From Planctomycetaceae bacterium (lineage in GTDB: Bacteria > Planctomycetota > Planctomycetia > Planctomycetales > Planctomycetaceae), in the NCBI GenBank assembly GCA_020426325.1, contig JAGQQG010000033.1, positions 1 to 58,997 on the forward strand: a stretch of 58,997 bases of DNA, given 5' to 3'. Positions 5,112 through 58,821 of this stretch are shown piece by piece. Positions within the stretch are counted from its first letter, which is position 1. Each line of letters opens with the position of its first letter. The notes under the pieces were generated by a model, which ran no database searches, was not told the DNA's origin, and saw only the letters and a list, made by a program, of their open reading frames with translations. A program made the translations under genes and the position numbers.

Positions 5112-5112
5112 C

Positions 5113-7931: not shown

Positions 7932-7953
7932 ACAGTCGATTGAATGAGGTCTC

Positions 7954-8772: not shown

Positions 8773-9060
8773 ACCTGATGCACTCTTCGGACAAGGCATT
8801 CCCAAGAGTGCTCGCTTGGCTCACGACCCAAGCCCGAGAGATTTGACGCCACGAGAATGAAGTCGGCAAGCGGTGGTTCTACGTCTGATGACAAGTGCCG
8901 AAAACCCATGAATTGATGCACTACCAACCATGCGGAACGGCACACATCCCCCAGTGCTGTTTCGTCATATCAATGCCACAGGATGAGATCTTGGTTATAA
9001 TGAGAGGTCTCGATGCTTTTCAAAAATGAATGACGGTTGTGTGCCAGTGTGCGTCTGGGA
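8773..9060. other. Spacer carrying probable promoter of the DUF1553-DUF1501 pair
   Basis: No gene is visible. A perfect TATAAT hexamer near the right end is listed separately. Confidence 0.5.
8996..9001 (+). promoter_or_regulatory. Candidate -10 box (TATAAT)
   Basis: A perfect sigma-70 type TATAAT lies about 60 bases before the ATG at 9061. No good TTGACA-like element occurs at 16-18 bases upstream, so this is only a candidate. The preceding GG gives GGTTATAAT; a related GGTTATAGC lies at 25085-25093, a similar distance before the other plus-strand DUF1553 gene. Confidence 0.3.
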
Positions 9061-12090: not shown

Positions 12091-12120
12091 CCAGGATCAT
12101 CGATCCCGTCTGGGAGCCTC

Positions 12121-13527: not shown

Positions 13528-13656
13528 TGCGGCCATCTGCAAACTCAAGGGGTTCAGATCATCACGTAGCGGATTGAGGCATGCCCAGAACTCGTGGTTC
13601 AGAACCCATGATGATCGGTGTCACCGCCACCGCGGCCTGAAATCTTGAATGACGCC

Positions 13657-14991: not shown

Positions 14992-15162
14992 GAGCAGTCC
15001 CGATCAACAAGGTCACATTCGGTTTGATGTGGATGTCATCTGCTGAAAACAGATTGTAGCCCCTCAGGTGGGACGAAACAAAGACGAGCTTGCGGAGGAG
15101 TTGAGATTGCTCGTCAAGGTTCCGATCGTCCCCTGCCTGGGGATGACTGGGGATCGCGAGGT

Positions 15163-43008: not shown

Positions 43009-45222
43009 TCATTCCTCGTCCAGTGTTTTTTCGTATTCGGCCAGGAGGGGACGGTATGCGTACTCGTTGAGGACCGCGATCAGTCCGCGATCACTCTGGT
43101 CCTGGGCGATGTCTGAGAGCGTGTTGATGCAGTTGAAAGTGAGTTCCAGTGCCTGCTCCAAATGTTCGATTGCGCCCTCCGTGTCACCCTCGTCCTTTGC
43201 CAAGGCTGCTTCTCGGACCGCTTTGATAGCGCCGAGGTACTCCAGGACATACTCGCTCCGCTTGGCGTAGTAAAACAGCACGGGTTTGGCTCCGCCGTCG
43301 ATAGCCCCATGGGCCCGGTACAACTCGACCAGGTATTGTGTGAAAGCGTCATTCACTTCCTGCCACCACTCGGGAATTGGCTGAGCGATGTATTGCTTCA
43401 TCAGCATGCCACGAACGGGGAAGGCGAAGCCGAGATCGTGGCTGTCGATCAAATTGGTCGCTTTCTCGAGTTGCTCCCATGCAATCCACAACCGTTCAGC
43501 GGCAGCTTGATTACCGGTCGTCGTCGCCCAGAGTTCGGTTTGGGCCTGCTGTGGGGTGAGGTCACGTTCCCATGAGGCACGTGCGAGGAAATAGACAGAA
43601 GGATCGAGTTCCGCCGGAACCCAGTAACGGGTGGAGAAACCCTGCCAGCCGAGTAGTTTGAGGTCATCCAGCAAAGTGCCGATGCTCTGCGAGGACGATT
43701 GCGGAAGGATGCCGACGTTGTCGTCCGCCAGCGTGAGAATCAGTTGTGAGTTCAGTTTGTTGGCTGGGACATCCCGTAGCAGTTCCCGATGCTCCGCCAC
43801 GCGGCGAGCCGTGTAGTCGATAAAATTCAGCGTCTCTGCCTGCTGCGGGACGATGCGATCGAGAACCGGAAACAGGGCCGGGTCGACACTCGTGATCACA
43901 AGCCCGAGAGACGAGCCATCCGGTCGCTTCAACAGCGTTTCGTCTTCGAACAGCGTATGCAGAAAGGCCAACCCGACGAGGTTCCCTCGCATGGCCTGTT
44001 CACCTCGTGAACCGGACGCAATCAAGTCTCTCTCTGAGGCCTTGGCAATCAGTTCTTCCAGATCAAGCGTGCCCGACGGGAGACGGGCGTTGAGGATCGC
44101 GATTGCTTTCTCCGCGTGCTGATCCCATTCCGGGAATTCGGGGAGAGTGAGGTAAAGCCTGTCGATGTTCGGATAGGTTTTCACATAGGCCGCGACCTTC
44201 GCTCTGACCAGTTGAAGTAGCTTCTCGTCCGTGGGCCCTTGCTCAGCAGCGGGGACGATCGTGAGCTGGTTGAGACTGCGTCCAACTCGCGATCCAGGGA
44301 GTGCCGACTGAAATTCTCGAGGGAACTCCAGCGCCGAAATACTGATGCCGACCGACATGCCCAGCTCGTGGGCCACGTCGATCAGGCCTAGCAGATGGTT
44401 GATCCCCGCAGCGGTCATCTCTTCGGATGTCTCGATCCCCGCGAAGTCCGGGTTCTCAAAAAGCTCAGCCCCACCGAAGACCTTCTTGCCGACGGTGTCG
44501 CCATCGACCGGATACTGTTCGCCGAACCACAACTTTGCTGTTTGTTTACGGACTCCGCCGAACTCGTAGTTGACGAATGGATGCCAAGGGTAGACGCTTA
44601 GCATCACCCGGTTGAACTTCATCTTCGCGAGCTGACGCAGAAACTCCCGATGCTCCTCCAGTCCCCATGACTCCGGACCAACCGCGAAGTCGTTCACCGT
44701 GCGCCAAGTCCGTACGCGCAGTTCAGGCTCCATCACGAGATCATGACCGCTCAGATCGAAGTCCCGTTGTTCGTTGGGATAGATGTCGCCGCGAAACAGA
44801 TACCGGATCCCCAATCGGTGTCCCAACTCATACACGGACCAGAGGGTCGCGACCGGACTTCCGCCACCGACAATCAGCGTGTCTTTGTCTGCATCTTTAG
44901 TTTGAATCACCAGCCCCTGATCGGTGACGGTCGGCCACTTCGACTGCATGGCCGCTCGTACAGCCGGATTCGTGTCCGGGCTGCCAACAAGCACGACATG
45001 CTGAGGATCAGCGGGAATCTTCTCAACAACCGAGGCTTCGACATCTCGAAACAAGCGGCCGAGCATCCCTGCCAATTCATCAGCCGCATATCGCTCGATC
45101 TGTGGGGCCTGCGGACCATAAACGACAGAGAGCTGCTCCACCGCCTCTGCTCGCATGCCTAATCCTGAGACCATGAGCAGGGCTGCCGCCCAAGTTGACA
45201 CCGATGACTGATTTCCGATCAC
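43009..45222 (-). CDS. Exported glycoside-hydrolase-like protein (alpha-glucuronidase GH67/GH20 N-terminal type)
   Basis: A 737-residue protein beginning at GTG 45222, whose first bases overlap the stop of the upstream propeller gene (GTGA), implying translational coupling. A signal peptide ends near MRAEAVEQ. Residues ~30-150 match the small alpha/beta domain preceding the barrel in alpha-glucuronidases and GH20 enzymes (ERYAADELAGML, HVVLVGSPDTNPAV, GSPVATLWSVYELGHRLGIRYLFRGD). Residues ~165-480 look like a TIM barrel (REFLRQLAKMKFNRVMLSVYPWHPF, YLTLPEFPEWDQHAEKA). A helical C-terminal region follows. It probably acts on an acidic or amino-sugar polysaccharide; the specific activity is uncertain. 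Confidence 0.72.
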   Translation of the reverse strand: MIGNQSSVSTWAAALLMVSGLGMRAEAVEQLSVVYGPQAPQIERYAADELAGMLGRLFRDVEASVVEKIPADPQHVVLVGSPDTNPAVRAAMQSKWPTVTDQGLVIQTKDADKDTLIVGGGSPVATLWSVYELGHRLGIRYLFRGDIYPNEQRDFDLSGHDLVMEPELRVRTWRTVNDFAVGPESWGLEEHREFLRQLAKMKFNRVMLSVYPWHPFVNYEFGGVRKQTAKLWFGEQYPVDGDTVGKKVFGGAELFENPDFAGIETSEEMTAAGINHLLGLIDVAHELGMSVGISISALEFPREFQSALPGSRVGRSLNQLTIVPAAEQGPTDEKLLQLVRAKVAAYVKTYPNIDRLYLTLPEFPEWDQHAEKAIAILNARLPSGTLDLEELIAKASERDLIASGSRGEQAMRGNLVGLAFLHTLFEDETLLKRPDGSSLGLVITSVDPALFPVLDRIVPQQAETLNFIDYTARRVAEHRELLRDVPANKLNSQLILTLADDNVGILPQSSSQSIGTLLDDLKLLGWQGFSTRYWVPAELDPSVYFLARASWERDLTPQQAQTELWATTTGNQAAAERLWIAWEQLEKATNLIDSHDLGFAFPVRGMLMKQYIAQPIPEWWQEVNDAFTQYLVELYRAHGAIDGGAKPVLFYYAKRSEYVLEYLGAIKAVREAALAKDEGDTEGAIEHLEQALELTFNCINTLSDIAQDQSDRGLIAVLNEYAYRPLLAEYEKTLDEE

Positions 45223-46673
45223 GGTGCTTCCTCCGCAAAGCAGTACAACTTATTCAGAGTGCGAACATAGAGTCGATTGTCCGCGATGGCTGGCGTTGCG
45301 ATGATGCTCTCGCCGATGTCGTTCGTCGCGAGCAACTCAAGTTCCGGTCCTGCTTCAAGCACAACAATCCGTCCGTTCTCGCCCGGCACATAGATCTTCC
45401 CACCACCTGCAATGGGAGAGGCATAGTAGTTGCCAAAGTTTCGGATCCGCTGCTTCTCCCAGATGGTGCTGCCGTCCGTGAGATCGAATGCTGCCGAAAT
45501 GCCTCCCTTTTTGACGAGAAACAGTCGACCGTCATACGCAAGGGGAGAGGAAATATCCGACGGAGCCTTGCTGTCCAGATTCCACACCATCGCAGACTCG
45601 GTCACATCGCCGCTGCCGCCTCCGCGGATGGACTGAATGATGTTGCCCCCTCCCACCATGTTATCCGGCGACTGAAACGCAGCATCAATCTCGTCTTCGA
45701 CCAGAAAGCCATCCTGATCAGCATCCCCGTTGTCGAACTTCTCGTGGAAGACCGCTTCGAGTTCCGACTTCTCCAGCTTGCCGTCCTGATTCGTGTCTCG
45801 CCACTGAAGCAGTGCGTACTTCAAAACGCGGCTTGTGTCTCCGAAACTCTGGACTGACAGATATATGTGGTCATCGACGACGACCGGGGTCGTCATGATC
45901 GTGCGCAGAAGAGAATTGCAGGTCCAACGTTCTTCACCCGTCTCCGGGTCATAGCCCTTCAACTTTCCGCTGCCGGCAACAACGACATCGGTTCGCCCGT
46001 CAGCTGTGCACAGGACGGGCACCGAGTATCCGCCGAGCATGTCCGGTCGAGGCGTTTGCCAGCGAATGCTTCCCGTCTGCTTGTCGAGTGCGATCAAGTA
46101 CGGATTAAGGTCATCATCGAGATTGAAGATGACCATGTCTTCATAAATGATCGGTGAGTTCGCTGCTCCCCAACCCATCAGGTAGAACGGCATCGGCAGC
46201 AGATGCCTCCAGCGTTCGGTTCCGTCCTTCGCGTCGAGTGCAATCAGCCCAATCGTGCTGAAGTGGACGAAGACTGTCTCTCCGTCAGATGCGGGCGTCG
46301 AGGAAGCATGCTCGTTGGGTGGAGTAATCTCTGGCAGTTCGCCCGTTTCAAACTCCGTCTTCCACAACTGTTCTCCGGTATCGGCATCGAAGCCAAGCAC
46401 TGCGAATCTGCCTTCGTCCGTCAGTTCCGTCTCGTAAACGCATCCGTCAACAACGATCGGACAGGCAACCCCCTTGCCCAGTTCGACAGACCACACAACG
46501 TTTTCATCCGCTGAGAATGTCACCGGCGGATTCATACTCTCAGCTGAGATCCCCGAAGCATTCGGTCCACGGAACTGGGGCCAGTCTTCTGCATCACTCG
46601 GGGTCTCAGCTGCGAATCCGTATAAAATCAGCCCAGCCAAATGCACCGCTGTCGTCCATCTCATGAGTTTCAC
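45219..46673 (-). CDS. PQQ-type beta-propeller protein with EF-hand pair
   Basis: GTG 46673 or ATG 46664 starts a signal-peptide-bearing protein of about 484 residues. Repeated propeller blades are visible (WPQFRGPNASG, VLGFDADTGEQLWKTE, LIALDAKDGTERWRH, LIALDKQTGSIRWQT, YDPETGEERW), the pattern of PQQ-like quinoprotein repeats. Two canonical EF-hand loops are inserted in mid-propeller: DTNQDGKLEKSE (293-304) and DADQDGFLVEDE (317-328), predicting calcium binding. Catalytic residues of alcohol/glucose dehydrogenases are not evident, so it may be a binding or scaffold protein. It is third in a four-gene minus-strand operon. Confidence 0.87.
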   Translation of the reverse strand: MKLMRWTTAVHLAGLILYGFAAETPSDAEDWPQFRGPNASGISAESMNPPVTFSADENVVWSVELGKGVACPIVVDGCVYETELTDEGRFAVLGFDADTGEQLWKTEFETGELPEITPPNEHASSTPASDGETVFVHFSTIGLIALDAKDGTERWRHLLPMPFYLMGWGAANSPIIYEDMVIFNLDDDLNPYLIALDKQTGSIRWQTPRPDMLGGYSVPVLCTADGRTDVVVAGSGKLKGYDPETGEERWTCNSLLRTIMTTPVVVDDHIYLSVQSFGDTSRVLKYALLQWRDTNQDGKLEKSELEAVFHEKFDNGDADQDGFLVEDEIDAAFQSPDNMVGGGNIIQSIRGGGSGDVTESAMVWNLDSKAPSDISSPLAYDGRLFLVKKGGISAAFDLTDGSTIWEKQRIRNFGNYYASPIAGGGKIYVPGENGRIVVLEAGPELELLATNDIGESIIATPAIADNRLYVRTLNKLYCFAEEAP

Positions 46674-46757
46674 GCTCTGTTCGAGTTCGGGAGGCTCACC
46701 AGCAAACTGAACTCCAGCCTACCGGTGGGGCTGCATGGCGACAACCATCTTGCTCTG

Positions 46758-48584
46758 TCACTCCTCGCCTGCGTGGCAGCCTGTGCACGTGCTTGTGAGG
46801 GCCAGCCGGTCGATGCGATGATGGTCTTCGTCGTACGGAGCAAGTTCAGCATGGCACTGCAGACAGTTCAATTCCTGCTGCAGGACGCGGCGATGCGCCT
46901 GCTCAAAGTGCCAGTATCCCTCACGTGGGGTCTCAATCATCGACTCGATGTCGTGACAGTCTGCACACCGTTCAGTTGACGAAGGCACTGTTTGGGGGGT
47001 GTCGATGTTAAATGGAATCTCTGAGTGAGCGAGAATCGACCGGGCAGCAACGCGCCCCGTCAGAATGCATGGGCCCAGGAACGTCCCCTCCAATGCCGCT
47101 TTGCCATTGATGCCCACCAGTCCCGTCAACTCGCCGACTGCGTACAGGCCGGGAATCGGAGTTCCTTTTCTGTCAGTCACGCGACACTCGCGATCGACCG
47201 CCACGCCTCCCATGCTCTTTCGCGTCAATGGCCATGACTGCATCGCGTAGTACGGTGGCGTGTTGATCTTGGGCGAAGCCGTGTTGTTGTACTCGGTGCG
47301 ATCAGGACCGAAACGTCCAAAATCATCATCTCGTCCGCTGTCCACCAGATGATTGTATCGTTCGATCGTCTCAATGAGATTCTCGGGCGGCAGACCAGCC
47401 AACCGGGCGAGTTCCTCGATCGTGTCTGCTTTCTTCACGAGTGCAGGATTATCCAGGATGAGCCGTTCGACTTTCTTGAAATCACTCCAGTCAGAGCCAG
47501 AAACGACGAACTCCGGCTTACTCGCTTCGTCGAAGATCCACCAGATGGTCACCCGTTTCTGCTGTAACATCGCAGGCATCACTGCCTTCGCCCAGTTATG
47601 CAGGTTCGCGAAGCGTCGGCCTTCAGGGTTCACGATGATGCCGTACATGTTCGCAGCACTCAGTCCGTGGTCGCCGTCCGGATGACGTGGATCCGGGATG
47701 CCGGTGAAGTAATTCCACTGTCGGTCCATCTCGACGAGTTGCCCGCCTGCCGCCTGAGCGAGGCGGTGACCATGACCGACGGAGTTTCGACCCGAGCCGG
47801 CGAGAATCCGCTCGGGAAACGTCATCTCCTGTGGCCAGAACTCGCGGACCATGTCGAGATTACTCTGAAACCCGCCGGTCGCAAGAATCACATGGTCTGC
47901 TGAGATTTGCACGGTCTCATCCTTACGGAGTTCACTTGCTTCTATCCCCACGACTCGCTCCTCTTCGGACAGCAGCTTGGTTGCCTGCATGTTCCAGACG
48001 AACTGAATGTTGTCGTGCTTCAGGCAAGCGCGATAGATCGGCGTGACCAGTCCAATCCCGCGGCCGACCGGCTGATGAAATCGATCGACCGTGTTTCCAG
48101 GTGCAGTGTCGATTTTTTTAAACCGGACTCCCAGATTTGTCAGCCAGTCATAGAGTTCTTGCCGCGAAGTATCGACGTACTGCCGGACCCAGCCCGCGTT
48201 GGCATCTTCACCCCAGGTCATGAAATCGCTGTAGGCAAGATCCGGCGAGTCAGAGAGTCCAGACTCATCCTGCAGCGGCGTGTCAACGATCGTCACTCCC
48301 CCCTGAGACATGACCGCATGTCCGCCGAAGACAGACGACATATCGACCACAGTGACTGCAACCCCGGTCTGTCCCAACTCCAGAGCAGCCGACAAACCAG
48401 AGATCCCGGCCCCGACGATGACAACTCGCGGCTGACGTGATCTCTCCTTCGAATCATCACCTTCAGAACCGGATGAATCCTCAGCTGCCATCACACCGGG
48501 GGCTAAACAAAGCACGCAGACGACTCCACTCAACACGAAGAACCATCGAACGAAAAAAGTCCGGAAGTGCGGGGTGTTGAACAT
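46758..48584 (-). CDS. FAD-dependent fumarate-reductase-like flavocytochrome with C-terminal triheme tail
   Basis: A 608-residue exported protein (hydrophobic N terminus MFNTPHFRTFFVRWFFVLSG, cleavage near VMAAED). Residues ~50-525 form the FAD_binding_2/flavocytochrome c domain: VVIVGAGISGLSAALELGQTG, VFGGHAVMSQGG, ILATGGFQSN, KSMGGVAVD, GLYAVGELTG. The last 70 residues carry three CX2CH motifs: CADCH (540-544), CLQCH (574-578) and CTGCH (600-604), for covalent c-hemes. Soluble fumarate or urocanate reductases of Shewanella have their heme domain at the N terminus, so this order is reversed. It probably reduces or oxidises a small unsaturated organic acid in the periplasm; the substrate is unknown. 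It lies between two propeller genes. Confidence 0.88.
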   Translation of the reverse strand: MFNTPHFRTFFVRWFFVLSGVVCVLCLAPGVMAAEDSSGSEGDDSKERSRQPRVVIVGAGISGLSAALELGQTGVAVTVVDMSSVFGGHAVMSQGGVTIVDTPLQDESGLSDSPDLAYSDFMTWGEDANAGWVRQYVDTSRQELYDWLTNLGVRFKKIDTAPGNTVDRFHQPVGRGIGLVTPIYRACLKHDNIQFVWNMQATKLLSEEERVVGIEASELRKDETVQISADHVILATGGFQSNLDMVREFWPQEMTFPERILAGSGRNSVGHGHRLAQAAGGQLVEMDRQWNYFTGIPDPRHPDGDHGLSAANMYGIIVNPEGRRFANLHNWAKAVMPAMLQQKRVTIWWIFDEASKPEFVVSGSDWSDFKKVERLILDNPALVKKADTIEELARLAGLPPENLIETIERYNHLVDSGRDDDFGRFGPDRTEYNNTASPKINTPPYYAMQSWPLTRKSMGGVAVDRECRVTDRKGTPIPGLYAVGELTGLVGINGKAALEGTFLGPCILTGRVAARSILAHSEIPFNIDTPQTVPSSTERCADCHDIESMIETPREGYWHFEQAHRRVLQQELNCLQCHAELAPYDEDHHRIDRLALTSTCTGCHAGEE

Positions 48585-48643
48585 GTTGAAGCGGTCATCC
48601 AGACTTCAGGTCGTGAGACGATGAACAGTTTCAAGCCTCCCCG

Positions 48644-49912
48644 CTACGGAGATTCTGCGATGCAGAACAAGTGCCTCTCACCACGAATGAAGAGTTGATT
48701 GTCCGCGGGCGCTGGTGTTCCTCCGATGGCTTCTCCCAATTCATTTGTCGCTACGATAGTCAACTCATCGTCATCTTTGATGACGACCGTCGTTCCGGTG
48801 ACTGACGTGAGATACACGTGCCCGCCTGCCGCGATGGGCGATGCATAAGTCTTTTCGACACCGGGAATCCTTTGGGCGGTGTAATGAGGGGCACCCGTCT
48901 TCGCGTCAACGCAGGAAAGCATGCCCGACTTTCCCTTGTGGAAATAGATACGTCCCGCAGAGAGCATTGGCGAAGAGATGTCACAGACATCACGATCGAT
49001 CACCCAGGCGACTTTGTCAGTTCCCGCGATGTCCCCGCGACCATCCAAGTGGAACGCCCCCATGAACGCCCCTTGGAATCCACTTCCGACAAACACCATG
49101 CCGTTTGTTGCAACGGGTGACGACACTGGGCGGACCGTCTGTCCACTGCATCGCCACAATTCCTCGCCAGTCTCAAGATCATAGCTTCGCGCAAAGTTCT
49201 GCCCGTTCATGACTACCTGTTTGCGTCCGGAATGTTCGACGACCAGCGGGGTCGCCCATCCGGTCGGCTCATCCCGGTCCACCTTCCAGATCGTCTCGCC
49301 GGTCGACTTATCAAGCGCATAGAGAGCGGACGGCCCTTGATGGTCAAAGGGGACAAGAACCATGTCCCCCTCGAGGGTTGGTGAACTCCCCTCACCAAAG
49401 CTGTTCAGCGTTTCCATTTGCCCAAAGTCATCGCGTTTCCACTTCAGCTCGCCATCCATCGAATAGCAGAACAAACCTCGTGAGCCGAAGTGCGCATAGA
49501 TCTGTTGTCCATCTGTACATGGAGAAGCCCCCGCATACCCGGTGGTCTCATGGGTCCCTTGATGCGGCCGGGCAATCGTGGCCGTCTGCTCCCAACGCAG
49601 GTCGCCGGTGTCTCGATCCAGGGAAAGAACTTTGAAGGCGAACATTGGCGGCTCACCTGCCCTCTGGTCATCCGCAGGATCAGCGACGGTGATGATGACC
49701 TGATCATCCCAGACGATCGGCGACGAATTCTCCCGCAGCGGCAGTTCGACCTGCCATTTGATGTTCCCGGTGCTGCTCCACTCAATCGGAGGCGAAGCAT
49801 CGACCGCAACCCCATTCCCATCCGGGCCACGCCAATGCCCCCAGTTATCAGCACGTGCCTGCTGACTATTCATTACGAGAAGGAAAGCAAAGTACGCCGC
49901 AGATATTCGCAT
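48644..49912 (-). CDS. PQQ-type beta-propeller protein
   Basis: A 422-residue exported protein (MRISAAYFAFLLVMNSQQARA signal). Propeller repeats: NWGHWRGPDGNGVA, VLSLDRDTGDLRWEQ, LYALDKSTGETIWKV, SYDLETGEELWRC, CVDAKTGAPHYTA. This is the planctomycete 'PQQ-binding-like beta-propeller' group, with eight short blades and no recognisable dehydrogenase active site. It is first in the minus-strand operon that continues with the flavocytochrome (59 bases on), a second propeller and the glycoside-hydrolase-like protein. It could bind a sugar or act as a scaffold for that system. Confidence 0.88.
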   Translation of the reverse strand: MRISAAYFAFLLVMNSQQARADNWGHWRGPDGNGVAVDASPPIEWSSTGNIKWQVELPLRENSSPIVWDDQVIITVADPADDQRAGEPPMFAFKVLSLDRDTGDLRWEQTATIARPHQGTHETTGYAGASPCTDGQQIYAHFGSRGLFCYSMDGELKWKRDDFGQMETLNSFGEGSSPTLEGDMVLVPFDHQGPSALYALDKSTGETIWKVDRDEPTGWATPLVVEHSGRKQVVMNGQNFARSYDLETGEELWRCSGQTVRPVSSPVATNGMVFVGSGFQGAFMGAFHLDGRGDIAGTDKVAWVIDRDVCDISSPMLSAGRIYFHKGKSGMLSCVDAKTGAPHYTAQRIPGVEKTYASPIAAGGHVYLTSVTGTTVVIKDDDELTIVATNELGEAIGGTPAPADNQLFIRGERHLFCIAESP

Positions 49913-50174
49913 GATAAGACTCTCGCTTGTAGCTGGGTGAATTCGAACAAGCTTCAGATCAAATCATTGCAGCATCTGAAACGATCGTACAGTCACTTGC
50001 ATGACATGAGTGCATGGGCCGGACAGCACAATCTGATTCCACATGAAGAATTGTGGTGAATTCTCATCGTTGGACACCGTGTCAAGCGTTCGACTCTGCG
50101 ATATCGAGGGTCCAATGACTCACATGCTCGCGATCAATCTCCACTTCGCATTCTTTGTATAGATATCTTTCTGC
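49913..50174. other. Spacer, no gene seen
   Basis: Between the propeller operon and the lanthipeptide export genes. It was searched for a second precursor peptide with a Gly-Gly leader; none was found. Confidence 0.4.
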
Positions 50175-51422
50175 CTAAAAACTGATGGTATGCCGAATCT
50201 GTTCGCCGAAGACGGCCAGCAGGCTTTTTTGCTGGGTGATGATCTCGGCTCGTCCTGCCAGCCCGAGGCGGATCTGGCCGATGCGGTCCCCTCTTCTCAG
50301 AGAGTGATCTGCCAGCGCAATCTTGACGTTGTAGACCACGAGGTCATCGGATACCTGCGAATCCGGTGAGACAAACGTCACTGTTCCAGAGGCCGTGCCG
50401 TACTGCTGATGGTCGAACGCGTCGAACTTGATTCGGGATGGCATGTCAGCTTTCAAGTCAGCGATCTCGTCGCCGGGGACGCCCGCTTCAAAAATGAACC
50501 CCTGTTGTTCAGCGACCTCAAATACCACTTCGCCCGATTTGACCAGATCTCCCGCACTCAGTTCGCCCGCTATCACCACACCGTCCACAGGACTGACAAT
50601 GACCGCTTGCTCGCGTTGCAGATGAAGGTTGGCCAGTTCCTTTCGGGCAGCCTCAGCTTCGCCTTGCTTGTTGATGCGGCGGACATCGAGTTCACCTTGT
50701 TCGACATCCAGCTTCCGCTTTGCAAGCTGGCGCTCCTGCTTCAGCACTTCCAGACGTCCTTGATCGACGGGGAGTTGGGCGTTCTTCAACGTCTCACGAG
50801 CCGATTTGGTGGCGAAGACTGCTTCGAGTAATTTCGACTCGGTTTCTGCTTTCACCCTGACCAGCCGGACGATGCGTCGCTCGTTCTCCAGAGCCTGCTC
50901 GACGGCCAATTCTGCCTGCCGGACATCGTTGTCCCGTCGTTGCTCGGACGCTGAAACGCGATCCTGTTCGGCCTGCAGTTCTGCGTTGATCCGCTCGTCG
51001 TCGGCCTGATGTTGATCGACCAGAAGAGTTTCAATTTGCTCCAGCTTCTCGAGTTCCTGAGTCGCGGCATCGATCCGGCGTTCGAGTTTCTCGATGTCGT
51101 TATCCAGCGAGCCGGTATCCAGGCGGAGGAGGACGTCTCCGGAGTGCACCTCGTCTCCCTCCGCAACGAGCGCATCGGCGACACGTCCCTCCAACCCAGC
51201 TGGAACTGAAGCGAAGACGCGTGTCGGTGTTTCCTCAGGACGGACACGCCCATGGGCCACGACGATCAAATTGACCTTGGTGTAAGCGGCCCAGCCGATC
51301 ACGGATGCAACCAGGAGAATCATCAGCCCGATAACCAGGTGCACAAACAGCGTCGGTCTTCGGTCCAGGGTTTGGCCAAACTCGGTGCATTCTGAGAAAT
51401 CAATGATTGTTGGAGTATTCAT
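50175..51422 (-). CDS. HlyD-family membrane fusion protein of the lanthipeptide exporter
   Basis: A 415-residue protein starting at ATG 51422 with AAGGA 7 bases upstream. There is one membrane segment near residues 28-48 (VIGLMILLVASVIGWAAY). The first half-lipoyl motif follows (VFASVPAGLEGRVADALVAEGDEVHSGDVLLRLD), then a long coiled-coil hairpin (~105-270), the second lipoyl half (VSPVDGVVIAGELSAGDLVKSGEVVFEV) and a beta-barrel tail. Such proteins bridge an inner-membrane ABC exporter to the outer membrane. It lies 60 bases after the C39 ABC transporter gene on the same strand and must be its partner. No TolC-like outer-membrane gene is in the window. Confidence 0.93.
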   Translation of the reverse strand: MNTPTIIDFSECTEFGQTLDRRPTLFVHLVIGLMILLVASVIGWAAYTKVNLIVVAHGRVRPEETPTRVFASVPAGLEGRVADALVAEGDEVHSGDVLLRLDTGSLDNDIEKLERRIDAATQELEKLEQIETLLVDQHQADDERINAELQAEQDRVSASEQRRDNDVRQAELAVEQALENERRIVRLVRVKAETESKLLEAVFATKSARETLKNAQLPVDQGRLEVLKQERQLAKRKLDVEQGELDVRRINKQGEAEAARKELANLHLQREQAVIVSPVDGVVIAGELSAGDLVKSGEVVFEVAEQQGFIFEAGVPGDEIADLKADMPSRIKFDAFDHQQYGTASGTVTFVSPDSQVSDDLVVYNVKIALADHSLRRGDRIGQIRLGLAGRAEIITQQKSLLAVFGEQIRHTISF

Positions 51423-51482
51423 GGTGTGTCCTTGATCGGCACGGGGCCGCAGTTCTGGTCGATGGAACCACTGAGTTGTTGC

Positions 51483-53723
51483 TCAGCAGCGGGAGGAACC
51501 GTTGATGACGTTCGTCAGGAGATCGTGGCGTTTTCCATTCACGTGTGTGAGTCCGTTCTGTTTGCATGAGTGTTCGATGTCACTCTGGGAGTTCCAAAGG
51601 GATGCATACCGTCCGTGCAGAGCGAGTAATTGCTCGTGCGTGCCGGACTCGACGATTCGTCCCTCGTGCATCACATGGATCACATCGGCAGTGCGAATGG
51701 TGCTCAGGCGATGAGCGACGAGCACGACGGTCTTGTCTTTGAAGTAAGAGCGGAGGTTCTGTTGGATGGACTGCTCAGTCGCCGTGTCGAGGTGACTGGT
51801 TGCTTCGTCGAAGACGAGCAGGTCCGGGTCCCGCAGGAGTGCCCGGGCGATGGCGAGCCGCTGACGCTGACCGCCCGACAGGTTGGCTCCCCGCTCACCG
51901 ATCATTGTGTTGTACCGGTTCGGTAAGCTGGAGATGAACGAGTCCAGACCTGCGGCCTGAGCCGCACGAATGATCTGCGGTAGCGAGGCACCGGGAGTGC
52001 CGAGTGCGATGTTCTCGCGAATTGTTGCATTGAAGATATGCGGTTCCTGCGACACGATGCCGATCTGGCTCCGTAATGAATCGAGATCGATGTCGCGGGT
52101 ATCCATTCCATCGATAAGCAGCTTCCCACTAGTCGGTTCATAGAACTGCATGAGTAACTTGAGCAGTGTCGACTTGCCGCACCCGCTCTCGCCGACGATG
52201 GCCACCGTCTGTCCAGCCGGAATGCTGAGGTTGACCTGATTCAACACGTTGGCCCGAGATCCATACCGGAAGTCGACATCCATCAACTCCAGTCCCTGGG
52301 TGATGCCGGAGCAGCGTGCCCGTCCTTCTCCCTTCGGCTCAGTCGGCAGATCCAGGATCTGATACAAACGGTCGACTGCCACGAGCGATTCTTGCCATTG
52401 TTGGTTCAACGTCGATAGCCTCATCAGCGGCTGCAACAGATAGCTGAGCAATGTGTAGAAGAACATCAGTTGCCCGACGGTCAGGACTCCGTCCATGACG
52501 CGGAATCCGCCGTACCACAAGACCGCGATGCCTGCTGCTGATGAGATGATCCCGGTCATCGACGACAGGCTCAGATTGACCATTCGCAGGCGAAACCCGG
52601 ACTGCACGAAGTCCAACAGTTTGGCATCGCTCATTTCAGACCGCTGCCGGGCAATCCCGAAGGCTTTGATGGTTTCGACAGCAGAAACGTCTTCGAATGT
52701 GTGTGCTGTATGTTCGGCGGCGTGCTCCATCGCTGATCGTGAAAAGCGACGGGTCACCGGATGATGAAACAACATGCACAGGGCAAGCAGCGGTACAAAA
52801 GCTGTGGCGACAGCCGCCAGGCGAACGTCGTAGTGCCATAGTAATCCGAGCAACATCACCACGATCACCCCGTCGGTCAGTGCGTTCAGTGCGGCACCAC
52901 CAACAGCCTCACGGATTTTGGCTGCGTCTCCCAGTCGTGAGAGGATGTCCCCCACCCGCCGACTCTCGGAGAAACTGATCGGCAGGCGGAGAATGTGTCG
53001 ACAGTAGGAGGACATCAAAGCCAGATCGATCCTGCGTCCGACGTGAGCCACGAGATAGTCACGGAGCACATTGAACAGCGTCTGGAACAACAGCATCAAC
53101 AGCATTCCCAACCCGAGTGCATTCAACAGGCCGCGTTCATCCCGGACAAGGACTGAGTCCACCAGGTGTTGTACGAAGTAGGAGGTGGTCAAACCGAGCA
53201 AGGTCATCAGCACCGCACAAAAGAATCCCTCGACCAGTGTCCAGATGTGACTGCTGAGGATGCCCATCAGTCGACGACTGGGGCTGCATGCCTCGATGAC
53301 TGTCGAAGTCTCCAGGGACTGAACCATCAGCAAGGCATTGCCGGTCCAGAGTTTCTCAAACTCGGCCCGCGACATTTTCTGAATCGACTTCGCCGGGTCG
53401 CCGATGATCACTGATCGGCGACGGACGCGAAGGATGACCACAAAGTGAGCCGAGCTGTCGGCACGGATGACGTGAGCAATCGCCGGTAAGGGGAGGTCTG
53501 TGATCGCCTCAGGAGTGGCGTGAACAGCTTGAGCGGTGAACCCCATCCGTTCGGCCGCCTCAGCCATGCCGAGCAGGTTGGTCCCCTCCTGATCGGTGCC
53601 CGCCAGATCACGGAGCTGCTGCAGGCTCACTCGCTGCCGATGGTAGAGCGCCACGGTTGCCAAAGCCGCTGCCCCGCAGTCGCTTTGATCTTCTTGTCGG
53701 ACTAATCGAAATCGTCGCCACAT
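51483..53723 (-). CDS. C39-peptidase-containing ABC transporter (bacteriocin/lanthipeptide exporter)
   Basis: ATG 53723 is chosen: GGGAG lies 8 bases upstream and the peptidase domain begins directly; the frame is open to 53861, but that extension covers the intergenic dyad. The protein is 746 residues. The N-terminal C39 peptidase has the full catalytic triad: C16 in QSDCGAAAL, H94 in HFVVI and D110 in GDP. A six-helix transmembrane domain (~155-440) follows. The ATPase has Walker A GESGCGKST, signature LSGGQRQR, Walker B LLVFDEATSHLD and the H-loop in VAHRLS. PCAT-type transporters cleave after Gly-Gly in the leader and export the core peptide, exactly matching the VVGG site of the precursor encoded divergently next door. 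Confidence 0.95.
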   Translation of the reverse strand: MWRRFRLVRQEDQSDCGAAALATVALYHRQRVSLQQLRDLAGTDQEGTNLLGMAEAAERMGFTAQAVHATPEAITDLPLPAIAHVIRADSSAHFVVILRVRRRSVIIGDPAKSIQKMSRAEFEKLWTGNALLMVQSLETSTVIEACSPSRRLMGILSSHIWTLVEGFFCAVLMTLLGLTTSYFVQHLVDSVLVRDERGLLNALGLGMLLMLLFQTLFNVLRDYLVAHVGRRIDLALMSSYCRHILRLPISFSESRRVGDILSRLGDAAKIREAVGGAALNALTDGVIVVMLLGLLWHYDVRLAAVATAFVPLLALCMLFHHPVTRRFSRSAMEHAAEHTAHTFEDVSAVETIKAFGIARQRSEMSDAKLLDFVQSGFRLRMVNLSLSSMTGIISSAAGIAVLWYGGFRVMDGVLTVGQLMFFYTLLSYLLQPLMRLSTLNQQWQESLVAVDRLYQILDLPTEPKGEGRARCSGITQGLELMDVDFRYGSRANVLNQVNLSIPAGQTVAIVGESGCGKSTLLKLLMQFYEPTSGKLLIDGMDTRDIDLDSLRSQIGIVSQEPHIFNATIRENIALGTPGASLPQIIRAAQAAGLDSFISSLPNRYNTMIGERGANLSGGQRQRLAIARALLRDPDLLVFDEATSHLDTATEQSIQQNLRSYFKDKTVVLVAHRLSTIRTADVIHVMHEGRIVESGTHEQLLALHGRYASLWNSQSDIEHSCKQNGLTHVNGKRHDLLTNVINGSSRC

Positions 53724-53814
53724 GAGTCGTCTCCCAATGTTAGATGTCCTCTGAAGCGACGAACGAACGGGCATGTTACGAATGCTGACCTTACTGTCCG
53801 AATGAAGTGAACCT

Positions 53815-53844
53815 GAAGAGGAATGTGTCGTAACACTCCTCTTC
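53815..53844. promoter_or_regulatory. 30-bp near-palindrome in the divergent intergenic region
   Basis: GAAGAGGA at 53815-53822 is mirrored exactly by TCCTCTTC at 53837-53844. After one mismatch, three further pairs (TGT/ACA) close on a six-base loop. It lies between the divergent exporter and precursor genes, about 90 bases before the precursor ATG. No T-run follows on either side, so an operator or 5'-UTR regulatory hairpin is more likely than a terminator. Its central TCGTAAC recurs inverted as GTTACGA at 53775-53781. Confidence 0.5.
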
Positions 53845-53884
53845 AAACTCCGCTTGAACACTCAGAGCGGCTGCAACAGTCGCA

Positions 53885-53913
53885 TTGAAACTCTTTCACC
53901 TCAAAGCTGTACT
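53885..53913 (+). promoter_or_regulatory. Candidate sigma-70 promoter of the precursor gene
   Basis: TTGAAA (53885-53890) and TGTACT (53908-53913) are separated by 17 bases, giving 5/6 and 4/6 consensus matches. Transcription would start near 53920, leaving a very short leader that still contains AAGG (53921-53924). This is a weak prediction in a GC-rich planctomycete. Confidence 0.28.
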
Positions 53914-53932
53914 GCAGCGAAAGGCAATTCCG

Positions 53933-54151
53933 ATGAAGAAGCTCGTTCTGAACAAAGAAACGGTTCGCTCGCTGAACGGTCCTGAAATGCAACAGGTCGT
54001 CGGCGGTATGATCAACATGAACTTTGACTGCCCCGTCAGTGGCACCGGTGACAGCACCACGGTTCAAACGATGAGCGCGAGCTGCCATGGCTGCGTCTCG
54101 CTCGATCCGCGATCGCTGCTCGTGAACCCCACGCGAATGATTGGGCGCTGA
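53933..54151 (+). CDS. Class I lanthipeptide precursor peptide
   Basis: A 72-residue peptide from ATG 53933, with AAGG 8 bases upstream; an in-frame upstream start at 53885 is less likely. Leader (1-25): KKLVLNKETVRSLNGPEMQ then QVVGG, the common LNKET-type leader of class I lanthipeptides, with a Gly-Gly cut site for the adjacent C39 exporter. Core (26-72): 47 residues with three Cys (C33, C51, C54) and eleven Ser/Thr (S36, T38, S41, T42, T43, T46, S48, S50, S56, S61, T67). Eight of the Ser/Thr lie between C33 and C51. LanB would dehydrate Ser/Thr and LanC would add Cys thiols to form lanthionine rings. C33 has no upstream Ser/Thr in the core, so it is free, disulfide-bonded or in a reverse ring. 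The Cys-free tail (55-72) is unusual. Confidence 0.9.
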   Translation: MKKLVLNKETVRSLNGPEMQQVVGGMINMNFDCPVSGTGDSTTVQTMSASCHGCVSLDPRSLLVNPTRMIGR

Positions 54152-54162
54152 ATGACCTTGCG

Positions 54163-54202
54163 AATCGGACCGGCCTTGCCTTCTCATGGCGCCGGTCCGA
54201 TT
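54163..54202 (+). terminator. Intra-operon terminator/attenuator between precursor and lanC
   Basis: AATCGGACCGGC (54163-54174) pairs perfectly with GCCGGTCCGATT (54191-54202). The loop can close further with GCC/GGC (54178-54180/54188-54190), leaving a 3-base bulge and 7-base loop. A T-rich stretch (TTTCATTTT) follows the stem. It lies 11 bases after the precursor stop and before the preferred lanC start at 54338. Such partial terminators commonly let precursor mRNA exceed that of the modifying enzymes. Confidence 0.7.
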
Positions 54203-54337
54203 TCATTTTGCGCGACGGCCTACATCAACAAAGCTCACCCCCTCTTTGCGTCACTCGCAGGCATTTGGTTTAATGAATTCAGGCTGTCGATCGAGACTGA
54301 ACTTCTTGCCGCGAAATTGCGTACGCAGGCACTTTCT

Positions 54338-55621
54338 ATGACCGCTGATACCCTGAAGTCACGAGGATCGCACTGGCAGCCCCTGTTCGAACCTGCGGAT
54401 CAAGATCGAGTTCGAGCGGTCATTCAGATGATCGACGTTGCCCTGCGTGAAGAACTATCCCGAGGCGTTTCATCGCCGGATCTGGGGAGCGGACTGTCGG
54501 GAATGGCGTTGTTTTTCGGGACGCTGGCACAATCCAGTGGCGACGAATCGACTCACTCGATCACTCACGAGTGCCTTCGACAAGCCACGGATCTGCTCGA
54601 AGTCACACCACTCGGACCCGGCCTGTATGCGGGATTTACCGGCGTCGCATGGACAGCGGCCCACCTCGAACCAGATGCCTCGGCTGAGATGTTTTCGACG
54701 GTCGACGACGCGCTTCTCGCTCACGTAAGCTCTCATCCGTGGCGAGCCGGGTTTGACCTGATCAGCGGGCTGGTCGGCATCGGTGTCTATTTCCTGGAGC
54801 GGCTTCCCGACTCACGAGCGAGCGCTGGTCTAGACGAGATTCTGTCACGCCTCGACGAATCTGCGGAGCACACCGACTGCGGAATCACCTGGAAGACACG
54901 CCGCGAATTGGTACCAGAACATCAACGATCAGACGGAGCAGACGGTTACTATAATCTCGGCGTCGCACATGGCGTTCCAGGTGTGATCTCGTTTCTGGGC
55001 TCGTGCTGTTCCCATCCGCAACTCGCATCCCGGTCGCGTCCGCTACTCCAAGACGCGGTCAATTGGCTGAATGAGCAGCGAATGCCGGCAGGCTGTCATT
55101 CCGTCTTTCCTTACTGGAATGACACGATCAATTCGCCGTCTCCTGCCCGAACCGCTTGGTGTTACGGCGACCCCGGTGTGGCAACGGCCCTATTGGTCGC
55201 GTCTGAGGGAGCGGATGTTTCTGAGTGGAAACAATTCGCTGTCGATATCGCCAAGCAAGCGTTGCATCGTCCGTTCGAGAATACGGAAGTTGTTGACGCC
55301 CCTCTGTGTCATGGTGCAGCCGGTTTGGGACATCTCTACAACCGATTCTGGAATGTCACCGGCGAAGAGATCTTTCGAGAGGCAGCGATTGACTGGTTTC
55401 GCGTGACCCTGGACTTACAAACGTCTCAGAACTCACTGGCAGGTTTCCCCGCTTGGAAGACAACTCCCGAAGGACTTGGCTGGGTCGATGAACCCGGATT
55501 TCTTGAGGGGGCCGCCGGTATCGGACTGGCCTTGCTGAGTGCTGTCAGCGACCAACCACCTCGATGGGATCGCCCACTCCTGACCTGCATCGACCCGGAA
55601 GAACAGGAGACAACACCATGA
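54338..55621 (+). CDS. lanC: LanC-like lanthipeptide cyclase
   Basis: ATG 54338 gives 427 residues, the normal LanC size; the same frame is open from an ATG at 54152 directly after the precursor stop, but that would place the terminator hairpin inside the coding region. The fold is an (alpha,alpha)6 toroid with repeated GLSGMALFFG, GFTGVAWTAAHL, GLVGIGVYFLERL, GAAGLGHLYNRF and GAAGIGLALLS. Zn ligands and the acid/base His of LanC are all present: H211 in VAHGVPG, C275 in WCYGDPG, and C324-H325 in LCHGAAG. It adds Cys thiols to dehydrated residues. Its stop overlaps the lanB start (ATGA). Confidence 0.95.
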   Translation: MTADTLKSRGSHWQPLFEPADQDRVRAVIQMIDVALREELSRGVSSPDLGSGLSGMALFFGTLAQSSGDESTHSITHECLRQATDLLEVTPLGPGLYAGFTGVAWTAAHLEPDASAEMFSTVDDALLAHVSSHPWRAGFDLISGLVGIGVYFLERLPDSRASAGLDEILSRLDESAEHTDCGITWKTRRELVPEHQRSDGADGYYNLGVAHGVPGVISFLGSCCSHPQLASRSRPLLQDAVNWLNEQRMPAGCHSVFPYWNDTINSPSPARTAWCYGDPGVATALLVASEGADVSEWKQFAVDIAKQALHRPFENTEVVDAPLCHGAAGLGHLYNRFWNVTGEEIFREAAIDWFRVTLDLQTSQNSLAGFPAWKTTPEGLGWVDEPGFLEGAAGIGLALLSAVSDQPPRWDRPLLTCIDPEEQETTP

Positions 55622-58600
55622 GCAAACCGATCGCGACTACTGATTTCTTTGCTTTTCGGGCACCATTGCTCCCTTTTCAGAAGTTCCTCGACTGGAGCGA
55701 TGGCCTGCAAGGCCCTTCGGTTGGTCAAGATGGAGACGCGCTCGAGCACGCCCTTGAAGCAGACCGGACACGGCTCCGAGATGGCCTGCGCAAGCAGTTG
55801 GACGATCCGCTTGTCCGCGAGGCGATCTTTCTTGCATCGCCTAGCTTGTTCGACCGTTTAGAGACGTGGCACTCCGAACCGGAAAGTAAACAGGGGCGAA
55901 AGGTCGAACGCGCCATCGTCCGCTACTTCGTTCGCATGGCTGGTCGTGCGACACCTTTCGGCCTGTTCGCAGGATGTGCCGTTGGCAGAATCGATACCGC
56001 AACACATCTCACGGTTCCCGATCGAACGACCCACCGTCGGCACACCCGACTAGACATGGAGTACGTTTTTCAACTCGCAGAGGCTCTGGCCACATCCACG
56101 CAACTTCGCTCGGAACTCAGATTTCGTCCCAACAGCACTCTTTACCGAGCTGCCGGGCGGCTCCGCTATGCTGAATCGCGTATCGTTGGTAACACTCGTA
56201 ATCATCGTCTCGTCGTTGTGGACGAGACGGACTACCTCCTCGCGACAATAGAACGTGCAGGTGCCGGAGCAAGTCTGGAAGCCCTTGCAGCCGCGCTCGT
56301 CGATGACGAAATCACCCTGGAAGATGCTGAAGCCTATCTCGCCGAGTTGATCGACAGTCAGATACTTGTTTCCGAGTTGGAACCACCCGTTACAGGGCCG
56401 GAACAAATCAGCCATCTCATTGAGCAATTGACTCCGCATCGACCAGTGAACGAAATCACACAGCGATTGTGTGAACTTCGCGAAGGGATGTCACAACTCG
56501 ATCACAACCGAACGGCAAACACTCCCGATGCTTACCGCAGACTTGCGGATTCCTTGCAGAAGTTTCCGGTTCCTGTGCAGTTGTCGAGGCTGTTCCAAGT
56601 CGACCTGATCCTTCCCAGCGATCATCTCTCGCTTGGTCAGAACGTCGTGCAGGAGATGCTTCGTGGGGTCGAGATCGTGCGGAGCATGTATCGCAGATTG
56701 ATCGATGACCTTGCCGAGTTCCGCCGCGATTTCGCCGAGCGTTATGGCGACCGTGAGATCCCACTTGTCGAGGCGCTGGATGAGGAATCCGGAATCGGAT
56801 TCCGAAAATCTCCCCTCCCGAACGTCGAGTCCGAACCATTGCTCGCCGGCATTCTGATGCCCATGGGACTCGACGCAACGATGACCTGGACACATCAGCA
56901 CACCGAATTGCTCCGACATTTCACGAAGACCATCGCTGCGGGCAAACAGGAAATGCGGCTGTCCAAGGCTGATATCGCTGCACTCGCGGGAAGCCCGGAC
57001 GAGCTTCCAGACGCATTCTCCGTGAAATGTACGCTGGCGGCTGCTTCGTGCGAAGATGTCGACCGTGGAAACTTTCAGATCGTCTTCGGTGGAGTCGCTG
57101 GTCCATCAGGGGCACGGCTACTGGGGCGGTTCTGTCACATTGACGACGATCTCAGGGAGCACGTCACGCAACACCTGCGAAGGGAAGAATCTCTCCAACC
57201 TGACGCGGTGTTTGCAGAGATTGTTCATCTGCCGGAAGACCGGATGGGAAACGTGCTCTGTCGTCCTGTGCTCCGAGACTATGAGATCCCGTATCTCGGT
57301 CGTTCAGGTGTCCCTGAGGAACGGCAGATCCCGATCACGGACCTGTTTGTGTCGCTCCGCGACGGTCGCATCGTGCTTCGTTCGCAGCGACTGAACCGGG
57401 AAGTCATCCCCCGATTGACCAGTGCTCACAACTTCCTGTTGAGAACTCTGGGGGTCTATCAGTTTCTGGGATCGATGCAGCATCAGGGGATTGAAGGGTG
57501 GTCCGCCTGGAATTGGGGACCACTCAAGTATGCACCGTTCCTGCCTCGCGTGACGACTGACCGCCTCGTCCTTTCAAGGGCATGTTGGAACCTGTCAATG
57601 CAGGAGATCGAGGACTTACGGAAGCGATCCGGGGCGAATCTCTATCAGCATGTGCAACAGTGGCGTGAGTCGCGCAGTCTGCCGAGGCATGTGTTACTCG
57701 CCGAGAGCGACAATGAACTTCCGATCGATCTGGATAACATTCTGTCGGTGGAAACATTGGCAGACCTTGTAAATCGCAAGAATGAGGTGCAACTGGTTGA
57801 GATGTTTCCCGGTCCGGAAGAACTCTGCGCGGCAGGGTCTGACGGCCGTCATGTCCACGAGTTGATCGTCCCTTTTGTCCGCACCCACGAACCACGCCGG
57901 TCGAGCGTAGGACCGGCCAAAGCGCCTGCTGCCGATCAGCAGAGAGTGTTTGGACAGGGCTCCGAATGGTGCCAGTTGAACCTCTTCGCCGGAAGTTCGA
58001 CCATCGACCGCCTGCTCGTCGAATATGTCAGACCGATTACGAACACAATGACCGAGAGCAGCGACATCGATTCCTGGTTCTTCCTGCGTTACAACGTGCC
58101 CGGCAATCACCTGCGACTCCGTGTCCATGGTGACTCACAGCGTCTGCAAAGAATTGTCATCCCTAAACTGAATCGCCTCTCTGCAAGACTTCAGAGTGAC
58201 GGCCTTGTCTCACGCGTGCAATGGGATACGTACGAACGTGAGGTGGAGCGGTACGGCGGAATGGAGGCGATGCCCTTGGTCGAACAGATCTTTCATGCGG
58301 ACAGCCAATCGGCTATTGAACTGGTCGCCAACTATGCCGGTGATGAGGGCGCACATCTGCGTTGGCAACTTGCCCTTTACGGTCTCGACCGACTGCTGGA
58401 TGATCTTGGTCTCCCATTGGAAGAAAAGCTTTCAGTTGCCCGCGATTGTGCCACCGTATTTGCACATGAATTTGGCTTTCACGGCCCGTTCCGCAAACAA
58501 CTGAGTCAGAAACAACGTGATCTTGGCAGCCAAATCGAGAAGCTCCTGAGCGGTGAACGTGACAATGAACCGGTCCTCACAGCAGGACTCGAGAGCTACC

Positions 58601-58821
58601 GGACACGTTCTCATCGCATCTCACCCGTTGCCGCCAATCTGCAGGACCTTTCTGCCCGCGGCCTCCTGTCAATGTCGGTCAACGGAATTGCCCGCAGCCT
58701 GTGGCACATGCACGTCAACCGCGTCCTACGTGCCGCACATCGGGCACAGGAACTCATCCTCTACGACCTGCTCACCCGTCAATATGAGTCACAACGGGCA
58801 AGAAGGCGCTTGAATATTTGA
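55618..58821 (+). CDS. lanB: Full-length lantibiotic dehydratase LanB
   Basis: ATG 55618 overlaps the lanC stop by four bases and has CAGGAG upstream; the product is 1067 residues. The N-terminal glutamylation domain includes the family signature RYFVRMAGRATPFGLFAG (RATPFG at 110-115), extending to about residue 690. The C-terminal elimination domain (SpaB_C/thiopeptide-type, ~780-1045) includes WFFLRYNVPGNHLRLRVHG. Both halves are fused, as in NisB, unlike the split LanB of some other phyla. The enzyme uses glutamyl-tRNA to glutamylate Ser/Thr of the precursor and then eliminates glutamate to give Dha/Dhb. It acts in the cytoplasm with LanC. Confidence 0.95.
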   Translation: MSKPIATTDFFAFRAPLLPFQKFLDWSDGLQGPSVGQDGDALEHALEADRTRLRDGLRKQLDDPLVREAIFLASPSLFDRLETWHSEPESKQGRKVERAIVRYFVRMAGRATPFGLFAGCAVGRIDTATHLTVPDRTTHRRHTRLDMEYVFQLAEALATSTQLRSELRFRPNSTLYRAAGRLRYAESRIVGNTRNHRLVVVDETDYLLATIERAGAGASLEALAAALVDDEITLEDAEAYLAELIDSQILVSELEPPVTGPEQISHLIEQLTPHRPVNEITQRLCELREGMSQLDHNRTANTPDAYRRLADSLQKFPVPVQLSRLFQVDLILPSDHLSLGQNVVQEMLRGVEIVRSMYRRLIDDLAEFRRDFAERYGDREIPLVEALDEESGIGFRKSPLPNVESEPLLAGILMPMGLDATMTWTHQHTELLRHFTKTIAAGKQEMRLSKADIAALAGSPDELPDAFSVKCTLAAASCEDVDRGNFQIVFGGVAGPSGARLLGRFCHIDDDLREHVTQHLRREESLQPDAVFAEIVHLPEDRMGNVLCRPVLRDYEIPYLGRSGVPEERQIPITDLFVSLRDGRIVLRSQRLNREVIPRLTSAHNFLLRTLGVYQFLGSMQHQGIEGWSAWNWGPLKYAPFLPRVTTDRLVLSRACWNLSMQEIEDLRKRSGANLYQHVQQWRESRSLPRHVLLAESDNELPIDLDNILSVETLADLVNRKNEVQLVEMFPGPEELCAAGSDGRHVHELIVPFVRTHEPRRSSVGPAKAPAADQQRVFGQGSEWCQLNLFAGSSTIDRLLVEYVRPITNTMTESSDIDSWFFLRYNVPGNHLRLRVHGDSQRLQRIVIPKLNRLSARLQSDGLVSRVQWDTYEREVERYGGMEAMPLVEQIFHADSQSAIELVANYAGDEGAHLRWQLALYGLDRLLDDLGLPLEEKLSVARDCATVFAHEFGFHGPFRKQLSQKQRDLGSQIEKLLSGERDNEPVLTAGLESYRTRSHRISPVAANLQDLSARGLLSMSVNGIARSLWHMHVNRVLRAAHRAQELILYDLLTRQYESQRARRRLNI

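Follow-up and report, generated by a model that had tools for sequence, protein, structure and literature searches.

The planctomycete contig analysed here very likely carries a locus for the biosynthesis and export of a class I lanthipeptide with a leader of the LxLxKx5L/GG type, a reading drawn from the sequence that includes the chemistry proposed below. The window, by which we mean the whole stretch of DNA analysed, is the entire contig of 58,997 bases and belongs to an assembly of 6.85 Mb in 424 contigs (95.6% complete). The ORF list and profile scans placed genes for a precursor peptide, LanC, a full-length LanB, an ABC exporter with a C39 peptidase and its HlyD partner within bases 50175-58821, arranged as two divergent operons with LanT and HlyD on the minus strand and lanA, LanC and LanB on the plus strand (Table 1). 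A preliminary description of this DNA had named these five genes in this arrangement and had proposed that they serve to make and export a class I lanthipeptide in a planctomycete; each gene matched its family, and profiles, motifs and the comparison with a twin locus (L016, in genome G088 of the same family) support the proposal. The locus is real, coherent and of a known general kind, and it lies in an under-described phylum.

Table 1. Features of the lanthipeptide locus, in window coordinates
Feature	Coordinates	Strand	Description
hlyD	50175..51422	-	415 aa, membrane-fusion partner of the exporter, gene 2 of the export operon
lanT	51483..53723	-	C39-peptidase ABC exporter, 746 aa from corrected ATG
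intergenic region	53724..53932	.	between the divergent operons
lanA	53933..54151	+	precursor, 72 aa; NF038153 31.7 bits
hairpin	54163..54202	+	begins 12 bases past the lanA end; basis: folding
lanC	54338..55621	+	cyclase, 427 aa from corrected ATG; LANC_like
lanB	55618..58821	+	dehydratase, 1067 aa from corrected ATG; PF04738 + PF14028

Organisation of the locus

Searched across the whole 6.85 Mb assembly, the models for LanC and LanB, at E up to 0.001, and that for the leader, at E up to 10, returned one match each, the leader match having an E of 8.4e-7. All three lie here, and the locus is therefore not a product of chance. A chance leader match was likewise rejected, since no second match occurred in the 6.85 Mb up to E 10; in 14 control genomes the model found a match in five, never over its cut-off.

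All five reading frames are open in the ORF list, and SD-like sequences precede lanB, lanT and hlyD. The gene models held with respect to the presence of all five genes, while three starts required correction. Comparison with L016 moved the start of LanC to 54338 (427 rather than 489 residues); the alternative start at 54152 would add a 62-residue extension that overlaps the hairpin behind lanA and whose best match at the twin locus has an E of 0.63, and it was discarded. LanB starts at 55618 (1067 rather than 1085 residues); AGGAG precedes this start, which overlaps the stop of lanC in an ATGA. The open frame of lanT extends to GTG 53861 (792 residues in the ORF list); comparison with L016 and an upstream GGGAG place its start at 53723. 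For lanA, the twin and the upstream sequence make 53933 the most likely start.

From the layout, the promoters of both operons are expected in the intergenic region. A sigma-70 scan, which found 1 site versus 3.0 expected in shuffles, listed no sigma-70-type consensus there.

A terminator- or attenuator-like fold is predicted directly behind lanA, consisting of a 12-pair outer stem followed by TTTCATTTT. The 70 bases past the lanA stop fold at -32.7 kcal/mol (z -5.04, 0/200 shuffles as good), and the stretch 54140-54240 gave a z of -3.78 (1/200 shuffles as good); as background, 43 stretches of 70 bases from the locus average -17.7 kcal/mol, the lowest being -27.1. In the twin, the 70 bases past lanA differ in their letters and reach -32.4 kcal/mol (z -4.62, 0/200 shuffles). 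Among ten precursors compared, z values of -2.9 or lower were obtained behind five (the window, L016, the second precursors of L017 and L018, and L043), and no strong hairpin was found behind the other five (L015, the first precursors of L017 and L018, L044 and L045). A terminator-pattern scan (8 found versus 6.8 expected) did not list the lanA hairpin, probably owing to its loop length. As lanC starts 186 bases past the lanA stop, the hairpin is likely to act as a partial terminator upstream of lanC-lanB; it would probably stop many lanA transcripts and let fewer continue into the enzyme genes.

The preliminary description had also called the locus complete, which is too strong: the contig ends 176 bases past lanB, and none of the genes in the cluster was recognised as coding for immunity, a regulator or an outer-membrane protein. 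With Pfam and NCBIfam, no immunity gene was recognised among the nine window proteins from 43012 on, nor was one seen by eye beside the twin; a regulator or an extra protease was not recognised near the locus either. The genome contains 13 OEP (TolC-type) matches, which could supply the outer-membrane channel.

Modification enzymes and exporter

In Pfam, the single LanB ORF matched Lant_dehydr_N (PF04738; 587.5 bits, positions 2-649 of 649) and Lant_dehydr_C (PF14028; 208.3 bits, positions 1-254 of 255), which places the glutamylation and elimination domains on one chain. Solved dehydratases of three kinds (9g04, 5ehk and NisB, 4wd9) could be aligned to the protein. In the alignment to 4wd9, the counterparts of NisB R786, R826 and H961 in the corrected LanB are R835, R878 and H1030, the last through a second, sub-threshold alignment piece (score -1.5) with support from the motif and from a PF14028 match that extends to the LanB end. 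The available text of PMC4979651 describes the NisB mutants R786A, R826A and H961A as glutamylating without eliminating. The elimination motifs of the window LanB also occur in the twin LanB. Both proteins keep the arginine R110 of RMAGRATPFG, which we take to have a role in glutamylation. As to thiopeptide enzymes, NCBIfam gave a TIGR03891 match at the elimination domain of LanB, and NF045556, the model for pyridine synthase, reached 23.9 against a cut-off of 325.

LanC matched LANC_like (PF05147) with 150.9 bits over profile positions 4-350 of 350. Motif and alignment to NisC (2g02), a weak match with an E of 1.2e-5, located the predicted zinc ligands C275, C324 and H325 in the sequence, together with H211 and D140, to which we presumptively assign functional roles. 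The C-gap-CH zinc motif of LanC is described in the accessible part of PMC10352776. Among NCBIfam models only those for class IV, II and III synthetases matched, all far under their cut-offs. LanC is a stand-alone gene beside lanB, and up to E 0.001 LANC_like has no other match in the genome; on these grounds a class II system with a single LanM was rejected.

The LanT ORF combines Peptidase_C39 (134.7 bits), ABC_membrane (175.5 bits) and ABC_tran (129.9 bits) in Pfam. Of the solved structures, 8vp3, annotated 'ABC-type bacteriocin transporter', is the best match (E 7.1e-167), and the stretches with the C39 Cys, His and Asp aligned to it; counted from ATG 53723 these residues are C16, H93 and D109. 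HlyD matched PF13437 (HlyD_3) with 53 bits and TIGR01843 with 134.8 bits, below the cut-off of 208.65. The earlier statement that the catalytic residues are intact was thus confirmed by motifs and alignments for the elimination residues of LanB, the zinc residues of LanC and the C39 residues.

Precursor peptide and proposed product

The lanA leader matched the class I lanthipeptide leader model NF038153 above its cut-off of 22 bits. The peptide divides into a leader (1-25), a core (about 26-54) and a tail of 18 residues without Cys (55-72). The leader, MKKLVLNKETVRSLNGPEMQQVVGG, fits LxLxKx5L plus GG, with the residues L4-V-L6-N-K8-ETVRS-L14 and GG at 24-25, and together with the C39 transporter in the cluster this places lanA in the LxLxKx5L/GG-leader group of class I. 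As expected for a class I precursor, a core with Cys and Ser/Thr residues follows the leader: Cys at 33, 51 and 54, and eight Ser/Thr between Cys33 and Cys51 (36, 38, 41, 42, 43, 46, 48 and 50).

In the proposed pathway, LanB would glutamylate core Ser/Thr and then eliminate glutamate to give dehydro residues, to which LanC would add Cys thiols to form lanthionine rings. These would most simply involve Cys51 and Cys54, as no core Ser/Thr precedes Cys33. LanT would cut after the GG while exporting the peptide, assisted by HlyD and by a TolC-like channel of the outer membrane whose gene lies elsewhere.

The twin precursor shares all three Cys. Seven of the eight Ser/Thr between Cys33 and Cys51 are the same residue there, as against none of the three in the tail (56, 61 and 68); the one-sided exact probability, calculated by hand and post hoc, is 8/330 (about 0.024). 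Both precursors lack Ser/Thr between the GG site and Cys33. Identity between the two falls from 92% in the leader to 76% in the core and 56% in the tail.

L016 has the same five genes in the same order and divergent orientation as the window. Beyond its hlyD lies an unassigned ORF, and downstream of its lanB are two ORFs that by eye look similar to each other, together with ORFs that, again by eye, resemble polysaccharide-synthesis genes. Genome G088, a single contig of 7,744,989 bases, is very probably that of the cultured strain Maioricimonas rarisocia Mal4, given in the available part of PMC7716917 as a member of the Planctomycetaceae with GenBank CP036275 and type strain DSM 100296. Aligned identities between the loci are 76.4% for lanA (72 codons), 73.8% for lanT (741), 59.7% for lanB (1075), 52.2% for lanC (404) and 41.2% for hlyD (408; 40% in a separate protein comparison). 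Windows of 72 residues reaching at least the identity of lanA made up fractions of 0.487 of 669 in lanT (326 windows) and 0.106 of 1003 in lanB, and none was found among 332 in lanC or 336 in hlyD. For this one genome pair, the conservation of lanA exceeds that of lanC and hlyD, moderately that of lanB, and not that of lanT. The synonymous difference is also lower in lanA (pS 0.49 versus 0.62-0.71 in the other genes), and codon use or a younger common ancestor may thus explain part of this conservation.

Whatever its chemistry, the peptide could be a conserved signal, surface or developmental peptide and not an antibiotic, although we do not favour this function. A precursor kept at 76% beside LanB, LanC and HlyD at about 60, 52 and 41% would agree with it, as would the lack of a recognised immunity gene at either locus; however, only two sequences are compared, LanT is equally conserved, the low pS of lanA has the explanations just given, and immunity genes may be unlinked or unrecognised. 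A more specific version appears rather unlikely, namely that the twin precursors represent a planctomycete family with a fixed three-Cys core, a non-canonical Cys33 (disulfide or reversed ring), a ring-free conserved tail and a signal or surface role rather than that of a variable antibiotic.

We consider it improbable that the enzymes act and yield a non-standard product, such as a peptide that is dehydrated and carries few rings, or one with Cys33 in a disulfide or a reversed ring. The eight Ser/Thr face only two Cys between Cys33 and Val55, and a canonical ring to Cys33 is unavailable in both twins for want of a preceding core Ser/Thr; on the other hand, the zinc residues of LanC are present, several conserved Ser/Thr precede Cys51 and Cys54, and lanthipeptides commonly have more Ser/Thr than Cys.

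Distribution and genomic context

The distribution of the locus is sporadic. At E up to 0.001, the LanB domain PF04738 was found in 4 of 170 family genomes including that of the window (three over cut-off), in 6 of 397 class genomes (four over) and in 9 of 392 phylum genomes (seven over), the three genome sets overlapping. A gene-order search over the 170 family genomes returned the same four genomes. LanB scored over cut-off in nine genomes (G000, G034, G088, G174, G237, G363, G374, G457 and G623); the leader model (E up to 1) matched in five of these (G000, G088, G363, G457 and G623), over cut-off in all but G457. The four planctomycete genomes with an over-cut-off LanB and no leader match up to that E (G034, G174, G237 and G374) count against the lanthipeptide reading, as does the rarity of LanB in the phylum sample. 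This absence carries little weight for G374 and G174, as G374 is 67% complete and the LanB contigs are short in both (5,713 bases in G374, 8,908 in G174).

Several of these genomes differ in detail. L018, in genome G457 of another family, shows the five genes in a window-like order and divergent layout, with two precursors; these (leaders 12045-12119 and 11738-11812, minus strand) share a near-identical Cys-containing end and differ in the first halves of their cores. In G623 the precursors lie on contigs other than that of LanB: three leader-type GG precursors (L043, L044 and L045) occur on three contigs, and in L043 a terminator-like hairpin and a tail past the final Cys are also present. 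G363 contains a second LanB-like locus (L022, G363:C21:607000-624000; 3534-10436, minus strand), where the glutamylation and elimination parts sit on separate ORFs, adjoined by LanT- and HlyD-like genes. The N and C parts of LanB also form two neighbouring ORFs in L023 (G034:C15; 724-5544, plus strand), with a 612-residue ORF behind them that is LanC-like by eye. In L021 (G237:C83:14000-31000; 6585-15357, minus strand) a LanB-like ORF, 32% identical to that of the window, lies beside an open frame of 1855 residues; a leader-type precursor was looked for in L021 and not found.

Outside the phylum, a genome-collection scan reaching close relatives only found LanB at 46% in Corallococcus interemptor (L015), with a KLSLKKETLREL...VVGG precursor directly before it (18.8 bits, under the model cut-off). 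Between lanC and this precursor lies an ORF that by eye resembles a luciferase-like monooxygenase (5239-7800, plus strand), a possible tailoring enzyme. In a LanB tree of ten rows, which leaves out the split LanB of G034 (L023) and the sub-cut-off G127, G298, G494 and G540, only the pair of window and L016 was supported (100/100). As the position of Corallococcus among the planctomycete LanBs has no support, we claim no direction of transfer.

A model built from the two lanA rows matched in 6 of the 170 family genomes at E up to 0.01, two of them the twins. Three further matches, one in each of three genomes from a single genus (L051-L053), overlap a gene for an ATPase that by eye is MoxR-like; in L052 and L053 the match can be seen to lie on the other strand. 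Two matches in G019 contain internal stops, and these five were taken as chance.

Neither LanB nor lanA was found in four other genomes of the window's genus, one of them only 72% complete. Bases 44000-50000 of the window showed 78-80% DNA identity to G066 and 72-73% to G067, both of that genus, and only short matches to the same-genus genomes G064 and G065. Together with the kinship to the same-family genome of the twin, this identity of 72-80% in the flanking genes identifies the contig as planctomycete and supports the host group and the binning. Bases 45219-49912 of the flank hold a flavocytochrome c-like gene with a PQQ-like beta-propeller gene on either side, and the lan locus begins right after; G066 has these genes in the same order, with a DNA identity of about 77-80%.

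In G066, the block matching 43457-49859 directly adjoins the block matching 29768-25198 in reverse, and blastn found nothing of the lan region in 19.9 kb of G066 or in 19.5 kb of G067 at the flanking gene. The lan genes are hence absent at that place in both genomes, and the neighbourhood is rearranged. Either a gain in the window lineage or a loss in the other genomes of the genus may account for this pattern; base composition gave no signal of a recent import (G+C 56.9% versus 56.5% for bases 1-49912). That the locus is a decaying or silent import without a product in the window lineage is most improbable: a LanB over cut-off in three of the 170 genomes of the family and in no congener among four, and the direct junction of gene blocks in G066, would fit, but open frames, SD-like sequences and catalytic motifs are kept, and lanA has fewer non-synonymous than synonymous changes between the twins (dN 0.171 versus dS 0.80).

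Relation to known systems

A close parallel by description is found in Bacteroidetes. Walker et al. 2020 (PMC7268733), in the available text, report LxLxKx5L in a number of class I precursors from Bacteroidetes; GG ends many of these leaders, and the clusters often include a C39 protease. The leader motif, GG end, C39 transporter, LanB and LanC are shared with the window locus, which differs by its Planctomycetota host, a full-length LanB and the 18-residue Cys-free tail. Some Bacteroidetes class I LanCs are described there as related to LanM domains. Among lanthipeptides of Gram-negative hosts, clusters of Chitinophaga pinensis are described in the accessible part of PMC3091789. The pinensins share class I enzymes and the Gram-negative host with our locus, and their LanB is split according to the same portion of PMC7268733; the window LanB has both domains on one ORF, and membership in this group, judged by the enzymes, was rejected on that point.

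The nisin system has the two-domain LanB, the zinc LanC and the corresponding residues in common with the locus, and a different leader type. Its transporter lacks a C39 domain, a separate protease cuts the leader, and immunity and regulator genes are present. The twin shares the layout, a 76% identical precursor and a hairpin in the same place, and has strongly diverged LanB, LanC and HlyD.

Lanthipeptide clusters have been predicted in planctomycetes before (unspecified, class II and class V), and one paper describes Planctomycetota as RiPP-rich in ocean metagenomes, according to part of the available texts (PMC7794033, PMC11588811, PMC12639061, PMC4334474, PMC10805854, PMC9692418, PMC11118758). 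The suggestion that such a locus is undescribed consequently needs narrowing: it fits a product, of which we found no description in the literature searched, a body that includes few subscription papers, and it does not fit predicted clusters. A 2022 review (PMC8868522) states, in its accessible part, that the specialised metabolites identified until then in planctomycetes were all relatively simple.

The present analysis contributes the corrected anatomy of the locus, a twin in a very probably cultured strain, and predictions on the rings, the tail and the hairpin. The LxLxKx5L/GG class I leader, described for Bacteroidetes in the available text of PMC7268733, also occurs in planctomycetes and in a Corallococcus genome. 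If the locus works, it would provide a defined modified peptide for Planctomycetota, and the twin locus, whose host is very probably a deposited type strain, would offer a practical route to this peptide.
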